Source: Neisseria mucosa (lineage in GTDB: Bacteria > Pseudomonadota > Gammaproteobacteria > Burkholderiales > Neisseriaceae). From it: a stretch of 64,000 bases of DNA. The stretch covers positions 496,001 through 560,000 of the forward strand of contig NZ_CP053939.1 of assembly GCF_013267835.1 (NCBI RefSeq), given 5' to 3'. The notes under the pieces are model-generated. The model was not told the origin of the DNA and did not search any database. It saw only the letters and a program-made list of their open reading frames with translations. Numbering within the stretch: the stretch's first letter is position 1; the number at the start of each line of letters is the position of its first letter. Both the position numbers and the translations under genes were made by a program. Below are positions 3,848 to 55,410 of this stretch, piece after piece.

Positions 3848-5476
3848 TTAAATATCTCCCCATTCCAATCCAAATCGCTGTAAATATTTCCTCAATCGGT
3901 CGCTGTCATTGACTTTTGCTCTTTCTGTTCGAGAAATATTGAATAAAGCGCGACCGGCGGCGGCCATATTGGGGTGTTTGCGGCATTCGTCGATAACGTG
4001 TTGCAGTTGCAGTTTGTCGAACAAATCCAATGTGTCCCAATCGACTTTATCGGGGTAGCCTTGTGCTTTTTCAGACGACCTGTTATGTAGGAGGCCGTCT
4101 GAAAAGGGTTCTTCCGACCATAACCATTTGAGGCGTTCGATTTCGGCTTGGACTTGTTCTACCTGTATCCTGCCTTGAGGTGCGAGTGTTGCCAGGCGCA
4201 TGATGCTGGCGGCTAGGTCGCGGAAGTTGCCGCGCCATGGGGCTTGGTTGGAGTGGGCGAAGGCAAGGTGGGCGGCCAGGGCTTCTTTGTTGAAGCGGGT
4301 GGTTCGGCCGAGTTCCTGTGAAGCTAGGGCGAGCTGATGTTCGACGTTGGGCTCGATGTCTTCGCGGCGGTCGGAGAGTGCGGGCAGTGGGTAGTTCCAA
4401 ATGTTGATACGGGCGAACAGGTCTTCGCGGAAGCGTCCGGCGCGGATTTCGTGGCGTAGGTCGCGGTTGGTGCCGGCGATGAGCTGGAAGTCGCTTTTGA
4501 CTTCGCTGTCGCTACCGACGGGATAAAAGTGTTTTTCTTCAATGGCTTTGAGCAACATGGCTTGTTCGTCCAAGCCTAATTCGCCGATTTCATCTAAAAA
4601 CAATACGCCGCCGTCGGCAGTTTTTAGGTAGCCTTCACGCTTTTCCGCCGCGCCGGTAAAGGCGCCTTTTTTGTGGCCGAACAAGGCAGATGCTGCGCCG
4701 TCGCCGCGAAGGGTGGCGCAGTTTACATCGACAAATGTGCCTTTAATCAGATGGCGCGCTTTTTTCAATTCAAAAATCCTGCGTGCCAGCATAGATTTGC
4801 CCGCGCCTGTCGGGCCGGAGAGCAGAATGGGGGAAGGAGAGTTGAGCGCGACTTGTTCAATTTCGGCAATCATGCGGTTGAAGGCGGCGTTTTGGGTAGA
4901 AATGCCGCTTTTCAGGTAGCGCACTGCATCGTCGCGTACAGCGGCAAGGCGTTCGGCCAGTACGTCGTAACGGGCTAAGTCTAAATCGATGATTTCATAA
5001 CTACCGACATTGCCGTCCTCCATACTGCGTCTTTGATTTTTGGGTGGAGCGGTTTGTAACAATACGCCGGGGATTTGACGAGATTCCACCAATAAAAACA
5101 GGCAGATTTGGGCAACGTGTGTACCTGTGGTGATGTGGGTGAGATAGGTTTCTTCTTCTGTATCAAATGGATAACCCGCCGCCCAATCGTGCAGTTTGGT
5201 ATAAACCTCGGAGAAATCCCACGGATTTGTCAGCTCCATAGGCACAAGATTGACGGCTGTGTGCGGCGACACCTGTTGAATATCGGCTTTTACATGATCT
5301 GCCAGCTCGCGGTATTTCTCCGCATAAAACAGCTCCATGCGGTCAAGATGAAAATCCTGACGCTGATTCATGGCGACATTCGGCCGCCATTTCTGCCAAC
5401 GCCCTTGACCGAAACCACTGTCCAATACCGTACCGAGAAAGCTGACAGCGACTTGTTTTTTAGGATGGGTATTCAT
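3848..5476 (-). CDS. rtcR: RtcR, sigma-54-dependent activator of RNA-repair genes
   Basis: 542 aa, the usual RtcR length. The N-terminal CARF-like sensor (about 1-185) carries ITTGTHVAQICLFLL, the signature of the RtcR sensing domain. The AAA+ domain has Walker A GPTGAGKS (221-228), the sigma-54-contacting loop GAFTGA (271-276) and Walker B LFLDEIGEL (292-300). A DNA-binding helix-turn-helix region ends the protein. In other bacteria RtcR is held inactive by its CARF domain until RNA with cleaved ends (2',3'-cyclic phosphate or tRNA fragments) appears, then activates rtcBA or rsr operons. Here it is divergent from a Y-RNA/rsr/ligase cluster with a well-formed sigma-54 promoter, so that cluster is its likely target. 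A DUS lies just upstream of the start codon. Confidence 0.95.
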   Translation of the reverse strand: MNTHPKKQVAVSFLGTVLDSGFGQGRWQKWRPNVAMNQRQDFHLDRMELFYAEKYRELADHVKADIQQVSPHTAVNLVPMELTNPWDFSEVYTKLHDWAAGYPFDTEEETYLTHITTGTHVAQICLFLLVESRQIPGVLLQTAPPKNQRRSMEDGNVGSYEIIDLDLARYDVLAERLAAVRDDAVRYLKSGISTQNAAFNRMIAEIEQVALNSPSPILLSGPTGAGKSMLARRIFELKKARHLIKGTFVDVNCATLRGDGAASALFGHKKGAFTGAAEKREGYLKTADGGVLFLDEIGELGLDEQAMLLKAIEEKHFYPVGSDSEVKSDFQLIAGTNRDLRHEIRAGRFREDLFARINIWNYPLPALSDRREDIEPNVEHQLALASQELGRTTRFNKEALAAHLAFAHSNQAPWRGNFRDLAASIMRLATLAPQGRIQVEQVQAEIERLKWLWSEEPFSDGLLHNRSSEKAQGYPDKVDWDTLDLFDKLQLQHVIDECRKHPNMAAAGRALFNISRTERAKVNDSDRLRKYLQRFGLEWGDI

Positions 5477-5711: not shown

Positions 5712-5727
5712 TGGCACGCTGTTGGCT
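5712..5727 (+). promoter_or_regulatory. sigma-54 promoter of the Y-RNA/rsr transcript
   Basis: TGGCACGCTGTTGGCT matches the -24/-12 consensus: GG at 5713-5714 and GC at 5725-5726, 12 nt apart, with the full TGGCACG block and one mismatch in the TTGC block. If C5726 is -12, transcription starts at 5738, exactly the first base of the closing stem of the first Y-RNA module. The activator gene rtcR is divergent. Confidence 0.85.
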
Positions 5728-5737
5728 ATGTTGTGAA

Positions 5738-5817
5738 TGTAACGATACAGCAGATGCTTCGGGAAATACAGTTACCGGAGAAAAATTTTCCGTAAATTTA
5801 GTTGCTGTGTGGTTACA
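5738..5817 (+). ncRNA. Y RNA-like module 1 (short, no tRNA-like part)
   Basis: The ends pair: UGUAAC (5738-5743) with GUUACA (5812-5817), then a GA/UG internal loop, then UACAGCA with UGCUGUG. Inside is the motif shared by all seven modules, AUGC followed 9-11 nt later by UACA (here 5754-5757 and 5767-5770), and a small CGGA/UCCG hairpin. The long terminal stem with a small internal loop is the arrangement expected for the Ro/Rsr-binding stem of Y RNAs. It sits at the predicted 5' end of the sigma-54 transcript and abuts module 2 without a gap. Confidence 0.75.
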
Positions 5818-5908
5818 GGGCGAATGCCGACAAGACTACATTTGGATTAACAGGTTCGAATCCTGTCTCGTCTGATAGACGTTGAACGTCTTGTTTATTT
5901 AGTCGCCC
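5818..5908 (+). ncRNA. Y RNA-like module 2 with a T-arm mimic only
   Basis: Closing stem GGGCGA (5818-5823) with UCGCCC (5903-5908); shared motif AUGC...UACA at 5824-5840; inner stem CAAGAC/GUCUUG (5831-5836, 5888-5893). A tRNA T-arm look-alike sits at 5850-5866: five base pairs around a 7-nt UUCGAAU loop. It is followed by a CGUCU/AGACG mini-hairpin at the acceptor position, but there is no D-arm. It is therefore a partial tRNA mimic compared with modules 3 and 5. Confidence 0.7.
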
Positions 5909-5918
5909 ACCCTTTTTC

Positions 5919-6067
5919 AATATGGCAGGCAAATGCCTAGGGAAACTACAACATGGATATCCTTATGTCGCAGGTTCGAGTCCTGTCTCTGTTGTTTCAA
6001 ATAGCAGAGTAGCTCAGTTGGTAGAGCCAAGGCATGTTTCCCTTAAAAACTTGTTGCGTGCCATATT
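5919..6067 (+). ncRNA. Y RNA-like module 3 with complete permuted tRNA-like domain (YrlA-type)
   Basis: Perfect 9-bp closing stem AAUAUGGCA (5919-5927) with UGCCAUAUU (6059-6067), a small internal loop, then CAA/UUG. The shared AUGC...UACA motif is at 5933-5950, and AGGGAAAC pairs with GUUUCCCU. The distal part reads as a tRNA opened at the anticodon loop: anticodon-stem strand CCUU (5961-5964), 5-nt variable loop, T-arm with 7-nt UUCGAGU loop (5970-5986), 3' acceptor strand CUCUGUU (5987-5993), 9-nt linker, 5' acceptor strand AGCAGAG (6003-6009), UA, D-arm GCUC/GAGC (6012-6027), and the other anticodon-stem strand AAGG (6029-6032). This order is the one known for bacterial YrlA RNAs. Confidence 0.85.
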
Positions 6068-6075
6068 ATTTTTAC

Positions 6076-6157
6076 GGCAGCAGGCGGATGCCCGGAGAGA
6101 GTACATTAACCTTTCACGTTAAAACCGTTTCTCTTCATGTTTATCTGCTACGCTGCC
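6076..6157 (+). ncRNA. Y RNA-like module 4 (short, no tRNA-like part)
   Basis: GGCAGC (6076-6081) pairs with GCUGCC (6152-6157); after an AG/UAC internal loop GCGGAU pairs with AUCUGC (one G-U). The shared motif AUGC...UACA spans 6088-6105. The interior has GAGA/UCUC pairing and a UUAAC/GUUAA hairpin with a 7-nt loop. It is very similar in sequence and folding to module 7, so the two look like duplicates. A DUS at about 6168-6179 separates it from module 5. Confidence 0.75.
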
Positions 6158-6211
6158 ACTCATTCAAGGCCGTCTGAAATATTCAGGCGGATCGATATAA
6201 AAACCGTTTTC

Positions 6212-6357
6212 GGTGCATTCGGCAAATGCCGGAGGAATTACAGCCTGCTAAGCGCGAGGTCGCGGGTTCGAATCCCGTCTCTGCCGCCAACTATGGCAGA
6301 GTAGCTCAGTGGATAGAGCGCGTAAAAATTTCTCCACTCTTTGTTGCCTAATGTACC
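6212..6357 (+). ncRNA. Y RNA-like module 5 with complete permuted tRNA-like domain and embedded GCCA
   Basis: Closing stem GGUGCAUU (6212-6219) with AAUGUACC (6350-6357), then GGCAA with UUGCC; shared motif AUGC...UACA at 6226-6242; GGAG/CUCC and AAUU pairing inside. The tRNA-like part has canonical spacing throughout: anticodon-stem strand at 6253-6256, 5-nt variable loop AGGUC, T-arm with UUCGAAU loop (6262-6278), 3' acceptor strand CUCUGCC (6279-6285) followed by GCCA (6286-6289), a 5-nt linker, 5' acceptor strand GGCAGAG (6295-6301), UA, and D-arm GCUC/GAGC (6304-6319). Discriminator G plus CCA at the correct place makes it look like joined halves of a real tRNA. Confidence 0.87.
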
Positions 6358-6363
6358 ACCCCT

Positions 6364-6439
6364 TATGGGTGAATGCCATTAGGATTACATTCCTTCCTTG
6401 CTACAAACCTGAATGATCCTAATTAAACTAGTCGCCCTA
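6364..6439 (+). ncRNA. Y RNA-like module 6 (short, no tRNA-like part)
   Basis: UA plus GGGUGA (6364-6372) pair with UCGCCC plus UA (6432-6439), with one bulged U and one G-U. Shared motif AUGC (6373-6376) and UACA (6386-6389). An 8-bp inner stem AUUAGGAU/AUCCUAAU (6378-6385, 6416-6423) continues into AUUC/GAAU across the bulged UAC. It abuts module 7. Confidence 0.7.
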
Positions 6440-6440
6440 C

Positions 6441-6521
6441 GGCAGTAGGCGGATGCCCGGAAGAGAATACATTAGCTTTCAGTTAAAAACGCTTCTCTTC
6501 ATTTTTAGCCGCCACACTGCC
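6441..6521 (+). ncRNA. Y RNA-like module 7 (short, no tRNA-like part)
   Basis: GGCAGU (6441-6446) pairs with ACUGCC (6516-6521); after an A/AC internal loop GGCGG pairs with CCGCC. Shared motif AUGC...UACA at 6453-6471. GAAGAG/CUCUUC and a UUAGC/GUUAA hairpin lie inside. It is a near-copy of module 4 and the last module before the DUS hairpin and rsr. Confidence 0.73.
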
Positions 6522-6530
6522 ACCCATTCA

Positions 6531-6572
6531 AGGCCGTCTGAAAAACAAAGCTAAAACAAGTTCAGACGGCCT
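6531..6572 (+). terminator. DUS inverted pair between Y-RNA array and rsr
   Basis: AGGCCGTCTGAA (6531-6542) and TTCAGACGGCCT (6561-6572) can form a 12-bp stem with an 18-nt loop. There is no T run after the stem, so it may act as an attenuator or processing barrier between the RNA genes and rsr rather than a full stop. Confidence 0.5.
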
Positions 6573-6594: not shown

Positions 6595-8169
6595 ATGAAA
6601 ATGGCTAATACTACCTTGTTTCAATCTATTAAAAACCGTTTAACTAAAACCGACACTTATAACGAAGCCGGCGGCATCGCCTACACACTGACACACAAAC
6701 AACAGCTGGCCCAGCTTGCCGCTACCGGATGTCTGAACAATACCTACTATGCGGATGCCCAAAGTCAGCTTGACCAAGTGTTGAAATTGGCAGAAAACCT
6801 GGATGCCGAGTTTGTCGCCAAAACCGCCGTGTATGCCCGTCAAAAAGGTTTTATGAAAGATATGCCTGCGCTGTTGCTTGCCGTGTTGGCACAAAAAGAC
6901 GTGAATATGCTCGCCCGCGTATTCGACCAAGTGGTGGACAACGGTAAAATGTTGCGCAACTTCGCACAAATTATCCGCAGCGGCTCAGTCGGCAGAAAAT
7001 CCTTCGGCAACCGTCCGAAAAAACTGATGCAGACCTGGCTTTTGACCGCCACTGAAAAACAACTGCTTAACGCCGCCGTCGGCAATGCCCCGTCGCTGGC
7101 AGACGTGGTCAAAATGGTGCACCCAAAACCGCGTGAAGTATGGCGTGCCGCATGGTTTGCATGGTTGATCGGCAAACCGTACGACCGCGAAGCATTGCCG
7201 CCCATTACCCGCGCTTTTGAAGACTACAAACAAAGCCGAGAAGGCACATTGCCCAATGTTCCCTTCCAAATGCTCACCGCTTTAGACTTGAACAGCGGCG
7301 ACTGGGCAGAGATTGCCCGCAACGGCTCATGGCAGCAGGTTCGTCAAAACCTGAACACTTTCCTGCGCCACGAAGTGTTTGCCAAAAGTAAAAACATCAA
7401 AATGGTGGCAGAAAAACTGCGTGACGAAACCGCCATTGCCCGCGCCCGCGTCCTGCCTTACCAATTGCTGACCGCGTATCAGGCAACATCTAATCAAATG
7501 CCGTTTGAAATCCGCGAAGCGCTGCAAGACGCGATGGAAGCCGCCGTACAAAACGTACCGGCCATCCGAGGCAAAGTCGTGGTTTGTCCGGACGTCTCCG
7601 GTTCTATGCACAGCTCGGTTACCGGCCATCGCGGCAGCGCAACCAGCAAAACCCGCTGCATCGACATTGCAGCACTCGTATCCGCCGCCATGTTGCGTAC
7701 CAACCCGCAAGCCCACGTGATTCCGTTTGAACAAATCACGGTAAACGTGAAGCTCAATCCGCGCGACAGTATCATGACCAACGCCGAAAAACTCGCCAAT
7801 ATCGGTGGCGGCGGAACGGCATGCAGCGCACCGCTCGCCATGCTGAACCGCGAAAAAGCCGACGTGGATTTGGTCGTCATCGTATCAGACAACGAAAGTT
7901 GGGCGGATGACAACCAAGGATGGGGCGCAACAACCAGCCTGATGAAAGAGTGGGATATTTTGAAAAGACGTTGTCCAGAAGCCAAACTCGTTTGTCTGGA
8001 TATCCAGCCCTACACCAAGGCTCAAGCACGAAACCGTCAGGATATTTTGAACATCGGCGGCTTCTCCGACCAAGTATTCTCCCTGATTGGTTCCTTTTCC
8101 GAACGAGGTATGGGTACAGATTTCTGGGTAGAAGAGATTGAGAAAACGCCGTTGGCAGCTGTGAACTGA
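6595..8169 (+). CDS. rsr: Rsr, Ro60-like TROVE/vWA ring protein
   Basis: Bacterial orthologue of the Ro60 autoantigen. The N-terminal two thirds (about 25-320) are the HEAT-repeat TROVE domain that forms the RNA-threading ring. The C-terminal third is a von Willebrand A domain with the MIDAS motif DVSGS at 333-337. In studied bacteria Rsr binds Y RNAs and, with exoribonuclease PNPase, takes part in structured-RNA decay and rRNA maturation under stress. The 524-aa length is normal. Two in-frame starts are close together (6595 and 6601); the second (MANTTLF) is equally plausible. Its place directly after seven Y-RNA-like modules and opposite rtcR makes the assignment firm. Confidence 0.94.
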   Translation: MKMANTTLFQSIKNRLTKTDTYNEAGGIAYTLTHKQQLAQLAATGCLNNTYYADAQSQLDQVLKLAENLDAEFVAKTAVYARQKGFMKDMPALLLAVLAQKDVNMLARVFDQVVDNGKMLRNFAQIIRSGSVGRKSFGNRPKKLMQTWLLTATEKQLLNAAVGNAPSLADVVKMVHPKPREVWRAAWFAWLIGKPYDREALPPITRAFEDYKQSREGTLPNVPFQMLTALDLNSGDWAEIARNGSWQQVRQNLNTFLRHEVFAKSKNIKMVAEKLRDETAIARARVLPYQLLTAYQATSNQMPFEIREALQDAMEAAVQNVPAIRGKVVVCPDVSGSMHSSVTGHRGSATSKTRCIDIAALVSAAMLRTNPQAHVIPFEQITVNVKLNPRDSIMTNAEKLANIGGGGTACSAPLAMLNREKADVDLVVIVSDNESWADDNQGWGATTSLMKEWDILKRRCPEAKLVCLDIQPYTKAQARNRQDILNIGGFSDQVFSLIGSFSERGMGTDFWVEEIEKTPLAAVN

Positions 8170-8257: not shown

Positions 8258-9736
8258 ATGCAAAAATTTATCTTAATCCGCGGTCATCAAGGTTCGGGAA
8301 AATCGACGTTTGCCGAACAAAAAGCCGCTGAATTTAAAGCGCAGTATCCAGATGCGGAAGTGGTCCGTATTGAAAACGATTTGTTCATTACCGATGAATA
8401 CGGTGAGTATCATTGGTCGGGTGAAGCAGTGGATAAGGCGCAGAAACGCGGTAATGCCTTGATGACTGAAACTTTGAGACTTGGACGCCAAAATCCGAAT
8501 CGAAATATTCTGATCATTAATTCCAATACCAACCAAAAAGCTTCGCGTTGCCGTCATTTATTGGATCAGGCGGAGAAAAGCGGTTTTGAAACAGAGGTCT
8601 ATCGACTGCACAATTTCTATCCCAACCTGCATGGCGTGAAAGAGCATGACGTATTGGCGGCGTATATCAAGCTGAACCAAAACCGAGTGGCAAACGAAAT
8701 CCATATCGAGGCCGTGCAACCGGCAAATGCGGAGCAGTTAGAAAAAATCGAACAGATGCAGGCTGTCGAGCATAAGCCGCTGGTGTTTGATGAAGCGCAG
8801 CAAACCTTTGTGACCGATCACTATCTGCAACACGGCAGCCGCAACTTTACCGCCAAAGCATCCAAGCACTATCCTGAATTGCGCGTGTTGAAATACGCCC
8901 GCAGCGTGTTCTATAACAACCGCTTTGATGATGCTTTGCTGGAAATGCGCGGTTTGATTATCGACGCGCACAACCGCATCATCGTGCGTCCGTTTAAAAA
9001 AGTGTTCAATTATTCGGAACGTATCGCCAAAGGCAGCCGTTATCCGATCCGAATCAGCGACGAGAGATTGGTGGATGCGGTCGTAAAAGTAAACGGCTTC
9101 CTCGGCTGCTGCACTTTCGTCTCGCTTTCAGACGACCATCCGTCTAAAGGCGCTTCGTTTGACGGCAAAGTGCTGTATTCGACTACCGGTTCGCTTGATA
9201 GCGCGTTTGCAGACATGACCGCCGCACACTGCGCGCAATACGAAACCTTGTTCCGCGCTTATCCGAACCACACTTTTTTGTTTGAAATCACAGACGCGAA
9301 AGACGTTCACATCATCCGTGAAGAATTGGGCGAAACCTTAATCGGCTGCATTGACGTGGCGACCGGCCGTCAGTTTAGCGAAGCGGAATTGGACAAAATC
9401 GGCAAACAATACGGCGTTCGCCGTCCTGAAACGCTGAAAAACATCACGTTTGGCGAGCTGAAAGGCCGTCTGAAAAATGTGGAACACGAAGGCTTTATGG
9501 TATTTGATGCCCAAAACGGCGAAATGCTGTTCAAACTCAAATCACCGTATTACCTGATTTCCAAGTTTTTAGGACGAAGCAACGAGGGCAATATCAGCCG
9601 CAAACTGGATAAACGCCATGTTGATGAAGAATTTTACCCTTTGATTGACTATATCCACGAGCATCAGGAAACATTCAATGCCATGTCGGAATTGGATAAA
9701 ATCGCGTTTATTCAGGCGTTTTTGAAGCAGTTGTAA
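8258..9736 (+). CDS. Fused polynucleotide kinase / T4 Rnl1-type RNA ligase
   Basis: 492 aa with two catalytic parts. Residues 1-150 form a P-loop kinase with Walker A GHQGSGKST (9-17), as in 5'-OH polynucleotide kinases. Residues 190-492 resemble T4 RNA ligase 1: EMRGLIID and RPFKKVFNYSE (229-254), nucleotidyl motif I KVNG with adenylated lysine K277, motif IIIa FEITD (342-346), motif IV EGFMVF (411-416), and motif V KLKSPYYL (426-433). Expected activity: phosphorylate a 5'-OH RNA end, then ATP-dependent sealing to a 3'-OH. I see no phosphatase motif (DxDGT) for removing a 2',3'-cyclic phosphate, so 3'-end healing must come from elsewhere. Same strand and 88 nt after rsr, under the likely control of RtcR; it takes the place that RtcB/RtcA hold in other species. 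Confidence 0.9.
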   Translation: MQKFILIRGHQGSGKSTFAEQKAAEFKAQYPDAEVVRIENDLFITDEYGEYHWSGEAVDKAQKRGNALMTETLRLGRQNPNRNILIINSNTNQKASRCRHLLDQAEKSGFETEVYRLHNFYPNLHGVKEHDVLAAYIKLNQNRVANEIHIEAVQPANAEQLEKIEQMQAVEHKPLVFDEAQQTFVTDHYLQHGSRNFTAKASKHYPELRVLKYARSVFYNNRFDDALLEMRGLIIDAHNRIIVRPFKKVFNYSERIAKGSRYPIRISDERLVDAVVKVNGFLGCCTFVSLSDDHPSKGASFDGKVLYSTTGSLDSAFADMTAAHCAQYETLFRAYPNHTFLFEITDAKDVHIIREELGETLIGCIDVATGRQFSEAELDKIGKQYGVRRPETLKNITFGELKGRLKNVEHEGFMVFDAQNGEMLFKLKSPYYLISKFLGRSNEGNISRKLDKRHVDEEFYPLIDYIHEHQETFNAMSELDKIAFIQAFLKQL

Positions 9737-11006: not shown

Positions 11007-11660
11007 ATGAGCAAAACCTACTTCACATCAGATTTACATTTCTCACATAAAAACATCGCCAAATTCTGCCCGCAATTTCGACCGTTTGACAATGTGGAAG
11101 AAATGGATGAATTTTTAATCCGGACATGGAATGAAACCGTTACGCCTGAAGATACGGTGTACAACCTGGGCGATTTTTCCTTTGCCCAAGACTACAAGCA
11201 GATAGAGCGCGTTTTGTCGCGTTTGAACGGGCAACATCACTTGATTTACGGTAATCATGATCATGTGATTCGGCAGCATGCCGATTTTTTCCGCAGCCAA
11301 ACCAAGCATGACGGCCATCCGCTGCTGTCGTCCATACGGCCGTATTTGAAACTCAAATTGCCGGAAATTAAGAATACGCTGGTTCTCTTTCACTATCCGA
11401 TTCAGGAGTGGGACGGCTGCTATCAGGGTTGGTATCACTTGTACGGCCATTTGCATGACAGGATGGCGGAAATCAAAGGACGTGCTTTAAACGTCGGATT
11501 CGATTTGCACGGCCGTTTTTTGACGGCAGAAGACGTCGATAAGTTTTTGTGTGATTTGCCTAAAATTTCTTATTTTGGCGAAGCAGGCTTGAAGGCCAAC
11601 TCGCCGGAAGAAGCGGCAGAGCTGGTGTCTTGGAAACTGGCGCAGTTAAATCAGGTATAA
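11007..11660 (+). CDS. metallophosphoesterase
   Basis: 217 aa calcineurin-like phosphoesterase. All metal-ligand motifs are visible in order: DLHFSH near the N-terminus, LGDFSF, GNHDH, HYPIQEWDG and GHLHD. Substrate unknown; proteins of this size are often annotated simply as metallophosphoesterase. Divergent from the rpiB-like gene, with an 86-bp shared upstream region, and closed by a perfect 16-bp DUS hairpin. Confidence 0.85.
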   Translation: MSKTYFTSDLHFSHKNIAKFCPQFRPFDNVEEMDEFLIRTWNETVTPEDTVYNLGDFSFAQDYKQIERVLSRLNGQHHLIYGNHDHVIRQHADFFRSQTKHDGHPLLSSIRPYLKLKLPEIKNTLVLFHYPIQEWDGCYQGWYHLYGHLHDRMAEIKGRALNVGFDLHGRFLTAEDVDKFLCDLPKISYFGEAGLKANSPEEAAELVSWKLAQLNQV

Positions 11661-54102: not shown

Positions 54103-55410
54103 ATGTCTGACCTTTTCGCCCGCCAACCCGAAGCCCCTTTAGCCGAACGCCTGCGCCCGCATTCTTTAGATGATGTCATCGGGCAGCAGCACTTAATCGG
54201 TGAGGGCAAACCTTTGCGCGTGGCGGTGGAAGGAGGAAAGCCACATTCTATGTTGCTGTGGGGGCCGCCGGGCGTAGGCAAAACCACGCTGGCACGGATT
54301 TTGGCGCAGAGTTTCAATGCGCAGTTTCTGCCTGTTTCCGCCGTATTTTCCGGCGTGAAAGACATACGCGAGGCCATTGAAAAAGCTGAAATTGCCTTGC
54401 AACAAGGGCAAGCGACGATTTTGTTTGTTGACGAGGTACACCGCTTCAACAAAGCGCAACAGGACGCATTTTTGCCTTATGTCGAAAGCGGCTTATTAAC
54501 CTTTATTGGCGCGACCACGGAAAACCCGTCATTTGAAGTCAATCCGGCATTGCTCAGCAGGGCGCAGGTTTATGTCTTGCAATCCTTGTCTTCAGACGAC
54601 CTAAAAAAACTGATTGCCAAAGTATTGGCTTTGCCCGAATACCAAGACTTTACGATTGAAGCGGATGCGCAAGAATTGCTTGTGAATACCGCCGACGGCG
54701 ATGCGCGCAGATTGTTGAATTTATTGGAACAACTTTTACGTGCTGCCGATACACGCCGTCTGAAAACCTTAACCGCCGAATTTCTCGCCGACAGTCTCGG
54801 GGCGCAAATCCGCCGTTTTGATAAGGGTGGCGAGAGTTTCTACAACCAAATCTCCGCCCTGCACAAATCCGTACGCGGTTCGCATCCTAACGCGGCATTG
54901 TATTGGTTCTGCCGTATGCTCGACGGTGGCACCGACCCGCGCTATCTCGCCCGCCGCATTGTCCGCATGGCATGGGAAGACATCGGCTTGGCTGATCCGC
55001 GTGCCTTAACGATTGCTAATGATGCCGCCGCGACTTATGAGCGCTTAGGCTCGCCGGAAGGGGAGCTTGCTTTGGCGCAAGCCGTGTTGTACCTTGCCGC
55101 CGCTGCCAAATCCAATGCAGGCTATAAGGCATACAACCAAATGCGCCGTTTCGTCAAAGAAAATGCCAGCGACGAAGTGCCTGTCCACCTGCGCAATGCG
55201 CCGACCAAGTTGATGAAAGAATTGGGTTACGGACGCGAATATCGCTACGCCCATGATGAACCAAATGCCTACGCCGCCGGCGAAAGCTATATGCCCGACG
55301 GCTTGGACGAACCCGACTTCTACCAACCCGTCCCTCGCGGATTGGAAATCAAAATTGGTGAAAAGCTGAAATGGCTGAAATCCTTGGATGAAGATGCGCT
55401 GGATGATTAA
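54103..55410 (+). CDS. rarA: replication-associated recombination protein A (RarA/MgsA)
   Basis: 435 aa from ATG 54103 (MSDLFARQPEAPLAERLRP). AAA+ ATPase acting at stalled replication forks. RPHSLDDVIGQQHLIG, Walker A GPPGVGKTT (about 52), Walker B ILFVDEVHRF, sensor ATTENPSFEVNPALLSR, and the C-terminal tetramerisation domain (FDKGGESFYNQISALHKSVRGS). Complete; a DUS core lies inside. Confidence 0.94.
   Translation: MSDLFARQPEAPLAERLRPHSLDDVIGQQHLIGEGKPLRVAVEGGKPHSMLLWGPPGVGKTTLARILAQSFNAQFLPVSAVFSGVKDIREAIEKAEIALQQGQATILFVDEVHRFNKAQQDAFLPYVESGLLTFIGATTENPSFEVNPALLSRAQVYVLQSLSSDDLKKLIAKVLALPEYQDFTIEADAQELLVNTADGDARRLLNLLEQLLRAADTRRLKTLTAEFLADSLGAQIRRFDKGGESFYNQISALHKSVRGSHPNAALYWFCRMLDGGTDPRYLARRIVRMAWEDIGLADPRALTIANDAAATYERLGSPEGELALAQAVLYLAAAAKSNAGYKAYNQMRRFVKENASDEVPVHLRNAPTKLMKELGYGREYRYAHDEPNAYAAGESYMPDGLDEPDFYQPVPRGLEIKIGEKLKWLKSLDEDALDD

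Follow-up and report, generated by a model that had tools for sequence, protein, structure and literature searches.

In the 64-kb stretch of the Neisseria mucosa genome analysed here (the window; the genome is a single contig of 2.22 Mb), seven consecutive modules stand in tandem at positions 5738-6522, between rtcR, the gene of the sigma-54 activator of RNA repair operons, and rsr, which encodes a divergent Ro60/TROVE protein. Judged from their sequence the modules look like Y RNA genes, and the array probably represents seven Y RNAs made from one RtcR/sigma-54 transcript, serving as several Rsr-binding adapters with different heads. An earlier sequence-only reading of this DNA had proposed a run of seven modules at this place, and we confirm it. 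The modules (M1 to M7) are listed below, where R1 is a core covariance model built from modules outside Neisseria, A3 is an alignment of M3 with its Neisseria relatives and A4 one of M4/M7 relatives, YrlA stands for the Rfam model RF02553 (gathering cut-off 69 bits), and z is the folding score of each module against 200 dinucleotide shuffles.

5738..5817, + strand: M1, no tRNA part (R1 26.8 bits; z -4.83)
5818..5908, + strand: M2, T arm only plus a short hairpin, class T by pattern (R1 37.8 bits; YrlA 39.2 bits, under the cut-off; z -3.68)
5921..6065, + strand: M3, full circularly permuted tRNA-like domain, no CCA (YrlA 60.8 bits, E 4.1e-13; acceptor pairs 7/7; covariation in A3; missed by R1; z -3.84)
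6076..6157, + strand: M4, no tRNA part (covariation with M7 paralogues in A4; full core missed by R1; z -4.08)
6215..6354, + strand: M5, full permuted tRNA-like domain with an encoded discriminator G and CCA (GCCA) in the acceptor loop (R1 41.5 bits; YrlA 62.9 bits, E 1e-13; acceptor pairs 7/7; z -2.12)
6367..6437, + strand: M6, no tRNA part (R1 35.1 bits; z -3.34)
6441..6522, + strand: M7, no tRNA part, paralogue of M4 (R1 22.0 bits, E 0.0011; A4; z -4.64)

Seven modules with their own closing stems

The array carries seven ATGC-N9-11-TACA motifs on the + strand, all within 718 nt (5754-6471). Outside the array, the 64 kb holds 11 matches to a looser pattern (N8-13), 6 of them on the + and 5 on the - strand, so that about 0.06 would be expected in 0.7 kb. 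Every module has the same layout: AUGC sits in an internal loop between a lower stem and an 8-9 bp upper stem, and UACA follows. When folded singly all seven close on their own lower and upper stems, as the sequence-only reading had it, M6 doing so over 6367-6437. M2 forms both stems, and no T arm, in its minimum-energy fold. Pairing of the 5' and 3' ends around a conserved internal loop, the mark of a Y RNA closing stem, is thus seen in the folds, in the R1 matches to five of the seven modules, and for M3 and M4 in A3 and A4. The boundaries originally proposed needed redrawing: module sizes are 71-145 nt where 76-149 had been given, and of the two junctions said to lack a spacer, M1/M2 does lack one whereas M6 and M7 lie 3 nt apart.

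Covariance models and similarity to YrlA

R1 was trained on 43 modules from outside Neisseria (45 well-paired, non-redundant sites, two of which were dropped by eye) and was therefore blind to the window. In the 64 kb it recovered five of the seven modules at E values of 4e-9 to 0.0011, the next match elsewhere having an E value of 0.17. With filters off in a 1.2-kb slice, R1 matched of M4 the upper stem only (6.0 bits), and M2, M3 and M5 were not recovered there as full modules. Covariation of the closing stems, a test set in advance, was observed in all three alignments: double changes occur at 16/16 core pairs of the R1 training set, and compensatory changes at 8/32 pairs among M3 relatives (A3) and at 5/24 pairs among M4/M7 relatives (A4).

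The YrlA alignments of M3 and M5 span the whole model, and some relatives score above its cut-off, these being the M3-type modules of loci L018 (98.3 bits) and L020 (82.1 bits) and the M5-type module of L020 (70.8 bits). Scores below the cut-off call for caution. In a census of 398 genomes of the phylum, 140 had a YrlA match at E<=0.001 and 3 exceeded the cut-off; of four census loci that were inspected, three (L146, L147 and L148, about 45 bits) proved to be tandem tRNA-Lys genes and the fourth had no tRNA. Such scores arise because a tandem tRNA pair imitates the permuted order, so sub-threshold matches need checking and the census was not used as a baseline for Y RNA numbers. Since these cross-matches reach 46.6 bits, the 39.2 bits of M2 would be unconvincing alone; M2 additionally possesses the Y core (R1, 37.8 bits). 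Taken together, the R1 matches to five of seven modules, the YrlA similarity of M3 and M5, and the rtcR-rsr setting support the proposed identity of the modules as Y RNAs.

The operon and the association of modules with rsr

The gene order is rtcR, reading leftward, then a rightward sigma-54 type promoter, the array, rsr, and a gene for an RNA ligase with a kinase domain:

3848..5476, - strand: rtcR, sigma-54 activator of RNA repair operons (NF038308, 798.7 bits against a cut-off of 650; PF06956, 253.8 bits)
5712..5726, + strand: sigma-54 type promoter, GG-N10-GC, TGGCACGCTGTTGGC (pattern only)
6595..8169, + strand: rsr, divergent Ro60/TROVE protein (PF25045 vWA_Ro60, 69.2 bits; PF05731, 33.3 bits)
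8258..9736, + strand: T4 RNA ligase 1-type ligase with an N-terminal P-loop kinase domain (PF09511, 33.3 bits, residues 229-432; PF13671, 29.0 bits, residues 5-114)

The modules are therefore encoded beside a Ro60/Rsr gene, as Y RNAs are expected to be, which bears out the rtcR-rsr context first ascribed to them. The rsr product matches Deinococcus radiodurans Rsr (2nvo) at E 1.2e-23 over residues 14-501 and scores 80.3 bits with NF041674, under that model's cut-off of 900; for the ligase-kinase, a comparison with Protein Data Bank sequences gave no match at E<=0.01. Both RtcR and a sigma-54 type promoter, the hallmarks of an RtcR RNA repair operon, are present (the promoter by pattern only, with a single further match in the window, at 54290), and the host genome encodes an RpoN domain. 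The operon lacks the rtcB and rtcA pair (no search for RtcA was made), and a T4 Rnl1-type ligase gene follows rsr. An RtcB-family gene does occur at 376125-377162 of the host contig, about 125 kb from the operon.

From the -24/-12 spacing we infer that transcription starts at 5738, the first base of the M1 stem; a predicted start at a module's first base suits modules that are released as units. In 8 of the 9 Neisseria loci where a promoter was found, 42 nt separate it from the first ATGC (39 in L017), and L021, whose first module is of the full tRNA-like class, is among the eight.

Rsr relatives were found in 10 of 46 Neisseria genomes, our own included. R1 matched at E<=0.01 in 8 of these 10 and in 0 of the 36 rsr-less genomes (strict filters), an absence that is not firm because 120 of the 307-617 candidates were scored per genome; in the remaining two rsr genomes, G019 (locus L018) and G024 (L016), R1 found matches when the loci were searched alone. 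Both rtcR and the ligase gene occur in 11 of the 46 genomes, these being the 10 with rsr plus G036. Eight of the 11 have a full-length ligase gene. That of G031 is divided between two contigs, and that of G024 (G024:C3:356270-357746) is in two pieces with a stop while the array is kept, so the ligase may be dispensable there.

Two genomes are informative on linkage. In G036 (L134, C1:593800-599500) rtcR lies near a C-terminal ligase remnant, with other sequence between them that appears helicase-like by eye; rsr is absent from this genome, R1 found no match in it (strict filters), and a single ATGT-TACA pattern stands between rtcR and the ligase remnant. G036 is likely to represent a natural loss of the cassette. 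In G045 (L021, L135, L136) rtcR and the ligase gene are 40 kb apart and rsr, with two modules, is more than 500 kb away, there being a sigma-54-like site at rsr and another at the ligase. Given the patterns in these two genomes, and R1 matches occurring only with rsr, the modules appear to travel with rsr.

A set of Rsr adapters with different heads

Published accounts describe binding of RtcR to 5' tRNA fragments with a cyclic phosphate (PMC7790460), of Rsr to the lower stem of bacterial Y RNAs (PMC4726728), and of the Y RNA tRNA-like domain to PNPase (PMC8394870), for which the host genome here carries a gene. The last of these contacts belongs to RYPER, which consists of Rsr, Y RNA and PNPase. 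On this footing, one RtcR/sigma-54 transcript would hold first the seven modules and then rsr and the RNA ligase-kinase, and the closing stem of each module, with the AUGC/UACA internal loop, would be its binding site for Rsr. The heads would then differ, M3 and M5 having a permuted tRNA-like body as in YrlA, M2 a T arm only, and M1, M4, M6 and M7 short hairpins. Broken tRNAs would activate RtcR and so give rise to a mixed set of Rsr ribonucleoproteins (RNPs), in which the tRNA-like heads might dock Rsr onto PNPase, or onto some other enzyme that binds tRNA, for the decay of unrepairable RNA, and the short heads might act as gates or competitors on Rsr. We infer that there is a single transcript, that it is processed into individual RNAs, that all seven modules bind Rsr, and that labour is divided among them.

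Several observations weigh against this interpretation. R1 missed M3 and M4 in the 64-kb search, and the 94.6% of paired cells in its training set (34-61% when the 3' side of the alignment was slid by 1-3 columns) is inflated, as the training sites had been chosen for good pairing. The YrlA scores of both M3 and M5 stay under the cut-off, the L017 counterpart of M3 has a damaged lower stem in A3, and the size of the array shifts fast, from 2 to 8 within the genus. The infirm absence of modules from rsr-less genomes belongs here as well. Finally, when the 785 nt are folded as a single strand, M1, M3, M4, M5 and M7 keep their own stems, but M2 and M6 pair with each other through the lower 5' strand of the former and the lower 3' strand of the latter; separate M2 and M6 would thus need co-transcriptional folding or Rsr.

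Head architectures and tRNA mimicry

By T-arm and D-arm patterns the window (locus L022) reads, from M1 to M7, as no-tRNA, T-arm, full, no-tRNA, full, no-tRNA, no-tRNA, which upholds the three architectures originally proposed (four modules without a tRNA part, one with a T arm, two full). Both M3 and M5 possess the T arm, acceptor and D arm of a permuted tRNA-like domain, and M2 lacks the D arm. In the full modules the order is T arm, acceptor 3' strand, loop, acceptor 5' strand and D arm, such that the module amounts to a tRNA with an opening on the anticodon side and a closed acceptor side. Class calls by pattern are imperfect: the third module of L056 and of L059 was called as having no tRNA part and a look-alike (by eye) third module of L049 as T-arm, and for L062 the no-tRNA call depends in part on an upstream site that is doubtful. 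Variants of the acceptor exist elsewhere. In six modules from five loci of Lysobacter and Pseudomarimonas the acceptor has 5 bp and is capped by a GNRA loop, and in four planctomycete records (L036, L037, L043, L050) some tRNA-like modules downstream of rsr carry acceptor-loop inserts of up to 84 nt.

Two other accounts of the tRNA parts were rejected. A cluster of tRNA pseudogenes does not fit, as ARAGORN found no tRNA in the window, the arms are permuted, the acceptors of M3 and M5 pair at 7/7 positions, and M3 relatives covary. Nor do the modules mimic one particular tRNA closely, the best agreements being 27/37 and 22/37 positions among 41 distinct sequences compared from the genome's own tRNAs (the 37 positions cover the acceptor, positions 8-9, the T arm and the last four bases, with the D arm left out).

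The T-arm and tRNA-like modules could more generally be decoys or sinks that occupy tRNA-recognising enzymes during tRNA damage, with Rsr merely stabilising them; PNPase, RNase P, the CCA enzyme, modification enzymes, or a tRNA nuclease inhibited by competition have to be considered as targets. The two full mimics and one partial mimic in the array favour this idea, as does the literature, where YrlA is modified by DusA and TruB (PMC8394870) and Hughes et al. suggest that it may competitively inhibit the anticodon nuclease (PMC7790460). Inhibition of that kind may apply to M3 and M5 as well. We nevertheless regard decoys as an unlikely explanation of the array, given that four of seven modules have no tRNA part at all, that the tRNA parts closely copy none of the cellular tRNAs compared, and that a Y stem takes the place of the anticodon arm, so the tRNA-like modules offer an anticodon nuclease no site to cut.

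A CCA-bearing acceptor loop in M5-type modules

In M5 and its relatives GCCA follows the acceptor 3' strand, and AU are the last loop bases ahead of the acceptor G. This arrangement is found in 13 of the 23 full tRNA-like modules of Neisseria, and each of the 10 genomes has one or more such modules; in M3 the acceptor is not followed by CCA. Over all 74 full tRNA-like modules, NCCA directly follows the acceptor in 17, the 13 from Neisseria not being independent. The other four are among 51 modules from outside the genus (in L042, L045, L052 and L054), and three of them have U before G. Under a stricter loop filter (at least 6 acceptor pairs and loops of at least 4 nt) CCA is present in 11/16 Neisseria modules and in 4/36 outside, two of those four being near-identical, and outside Neisseria U precedes G in 3/4 loops with CCA versus 7/32 without.

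With a discriminator-CCA and U(-1) placed around the acceptor loop, RNase P might open M5-type modules into two pieces. Such modules could conceivably be precursors of two-piece Y RNAs, cut by RNase P before G+1 and trimmed to a CCA end, a tentative proposal that we think rather unlikely. Several points speak against this. Among the modules from outside Neisseria, 3 have CCA at the next offset compared with 4 at the expected position (1, 2, 1, 2 and 1 at other offsets), and two Neisseria M3-type loops have CCA at offsets 2 and 3; the CCA position is by this control distinct only within the genus. Of five Neisseria loops without CCA, four likewise have U before the acceptor G. In addition, the minimum-energy fold of M5 has an 8-bp acceptor in which the discriminator G pairs with U(-1), a G:U pair that could shift or block RNase P by lengthening the acceptor. 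If the proposal were true, the M3-type (no CCA) and T-arm-only mimics would be accompanied by an Rsr RNP whose end resembles a mature tRNA acceptor, and this product could recruit enzymes that recognise CCA or the acceptor, or report on tRNA processing during damage.

Module numbers in other loci

Most work on bacterial Y RNAs has dealt with one or two of them per genome, and the sequence-only reading had set the seven-member locus apart on that ground. For comparison we counted modules in the 10 Neisseria loci and in 48 loci from elsewhere (52 named loci with Rsr relatives, less 4 that repeated genus loci); loci L023-L031, which have 1.5-kb flanks, were left out of the counts. Two stem scores were used: 33 is the 99th percentile of 1860 shuffles, and 26 is reached by 32% of shuffles, so that counts at 26 are mostly motif counts. 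At 33 or more 126 of 186 real sites are retained; of the seven window modules four are (M2, M3, M6 and M7). A strict-stem descriptor found five of the seven plus one stray site, with M4 paired to the wrong 3' strand.

Outside Neisseria, modules were present at score 26 in 36/48 loci (the 36 having a median of 3 and a maximum of 5, and 13 of them all three classes) and at score 33 in 35/48 (with a median of 3, a maximum of 4, and all three classes in 7 loci). These counts are lower bounds, since at least 5 of the 12 loci that score zero at 26 (L074, L075, L078, L080 and L082) have one upstream R1 match. The Neisseria loci L013 to L022 have 7, 7, 7, 7, 6, 8, 7, 7, 2 and 7 motif sites at score 26, and 2, 4, 4, 4, 4, 6, 5, 6, 1 and 4 at score 33, where bulged lower stems are penalised. 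The locus is hence not singular: among non-Neisseria loci with modules in the same Rsr clade the median is 3 and the maximum 4-5, and six to eight motif sites are found in 9 of the 10 rsr-bearing Neisseria genomes. A general pattern is thus seen, of which the arrays of Neisseria form the large end. Chen 2014 is said to give, in its abstract, at least one tRNA-like Y RNA per species, in which case several Y RNAs per species are already known. None of the papers listed in our literature searches has a title that points to Neisseria Y RNAs; multi-Y arrays may nonetheless be published.

Rsr of the same type is also encoded on eight viral contigs (L149-L156), seven of which have at least one R1 match at E 3e-5 or better; in L149 the match is about 3.6 kb away from rsr.

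A large array might also reflect neutral duplication, with one or two functional modules and the others drifting copies. The variable array size in the genus would fit this, as would the paralogy of M4 and M7, the damaged L017 counterpart of M3, and a module-like remnant without TACA seen by eye in L016 and L018; on the strength of the varying number, the damaged stem and the remnants, some modules may indeed be dispensable. We think drift quite unlikely as an account of the whole array, as six to eight motif sites are kept across nine genomes with Rsr identity down to 85% and the stems show compensatory changes in A3 and A4. The last alternative, one long structured 5' leader controlling the translation of rsr or the stability of the transcript in place of separate RNAs, has in its favour that the array is directly 5' of rsr and that the first module begins at the predicted transcription start, but is very improbable given that module number and order vary, that small reading frames (by eye) lie between modules in relatives, and that outside Neisseria the modules come after rsr in most loci having them and before it in some. 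The reading frames in question, upstream of rsr in L016, L017, L018, L019 and L020, split the array into two clusters.

Other features of the window

Inverted pairs of GCCGTCTGAA, which we take to be the Neisseria uptake sequence, make up 6168-6192 (between M4 and M5) and 6532-6571 (between M7 and rsr); the latter pair could act as an attenuator between the array and rsr. At 973-1654 there are repeated units that, by eye and from translations of the open reading frames, resemble a CRISPR array, with a short Cas3-like HD reading frame adjoining (1406-1654). A reading frame at 11007-11660 resembles a calcineurin-type phosphoesterase by eye (GNHDH); NCBIfam gave no match for it.

Relation to known systems

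Circular permutation relative to tRNA has been published for the bacterial Y RNA structure 6CU1 (PMC11472068). Like YrlA, M3 and M5 combine an Rsr-type closing stem and AUGC...UACA with a permuted T arm, acceptor and D arm; unlike YrlA, they score under its Rfam cut-off and M5 keeps a discriminator-CCA, and this type covers two of the seven modules. M1, M4, M6 and M7 are tRNA-less Y modules in an RtcR operon with rsr and in this may resemble YrlB of Salmonella, the second Y RNA of rsr-yrlBA-rtcBA, which has no tRNA part. With the rsr-yrlBA-rtcBA operon the locus shares a divergent RtcR, a sigma-54 type promoter, rsr and Y RNAs. It differs in that the Neisseria array precedes rsr, that a T4 Rnl1-type ligase with a kinase domain is in the operon, and that the RtcB-family gene is distant. 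Permuted tRNAs and two-piece tmRNA offer a further parallel in the order seen in M5, namely T arm, acceptor 3' strand, CCA, loop, acceptor 5' strand and D arm; M5 departs from them in having a Y stem replacing the anticodon arm, and its cleavage is only proposed, by analogy with permuted tRNAs.

Loci with up to eight neighbouring modules and three head types turn the function of Y RNA heads into a deletion question within one operon. The T-arm-only and CCA-bearing classes would separate PNPase docking from other tRNA mimicry, and two genomes provide natural controls, namely G045, where rtcR, rsr and the ligase gene lie apart and the modules stay with rsr, and G036, from which rsr is gone and in which no module was found.

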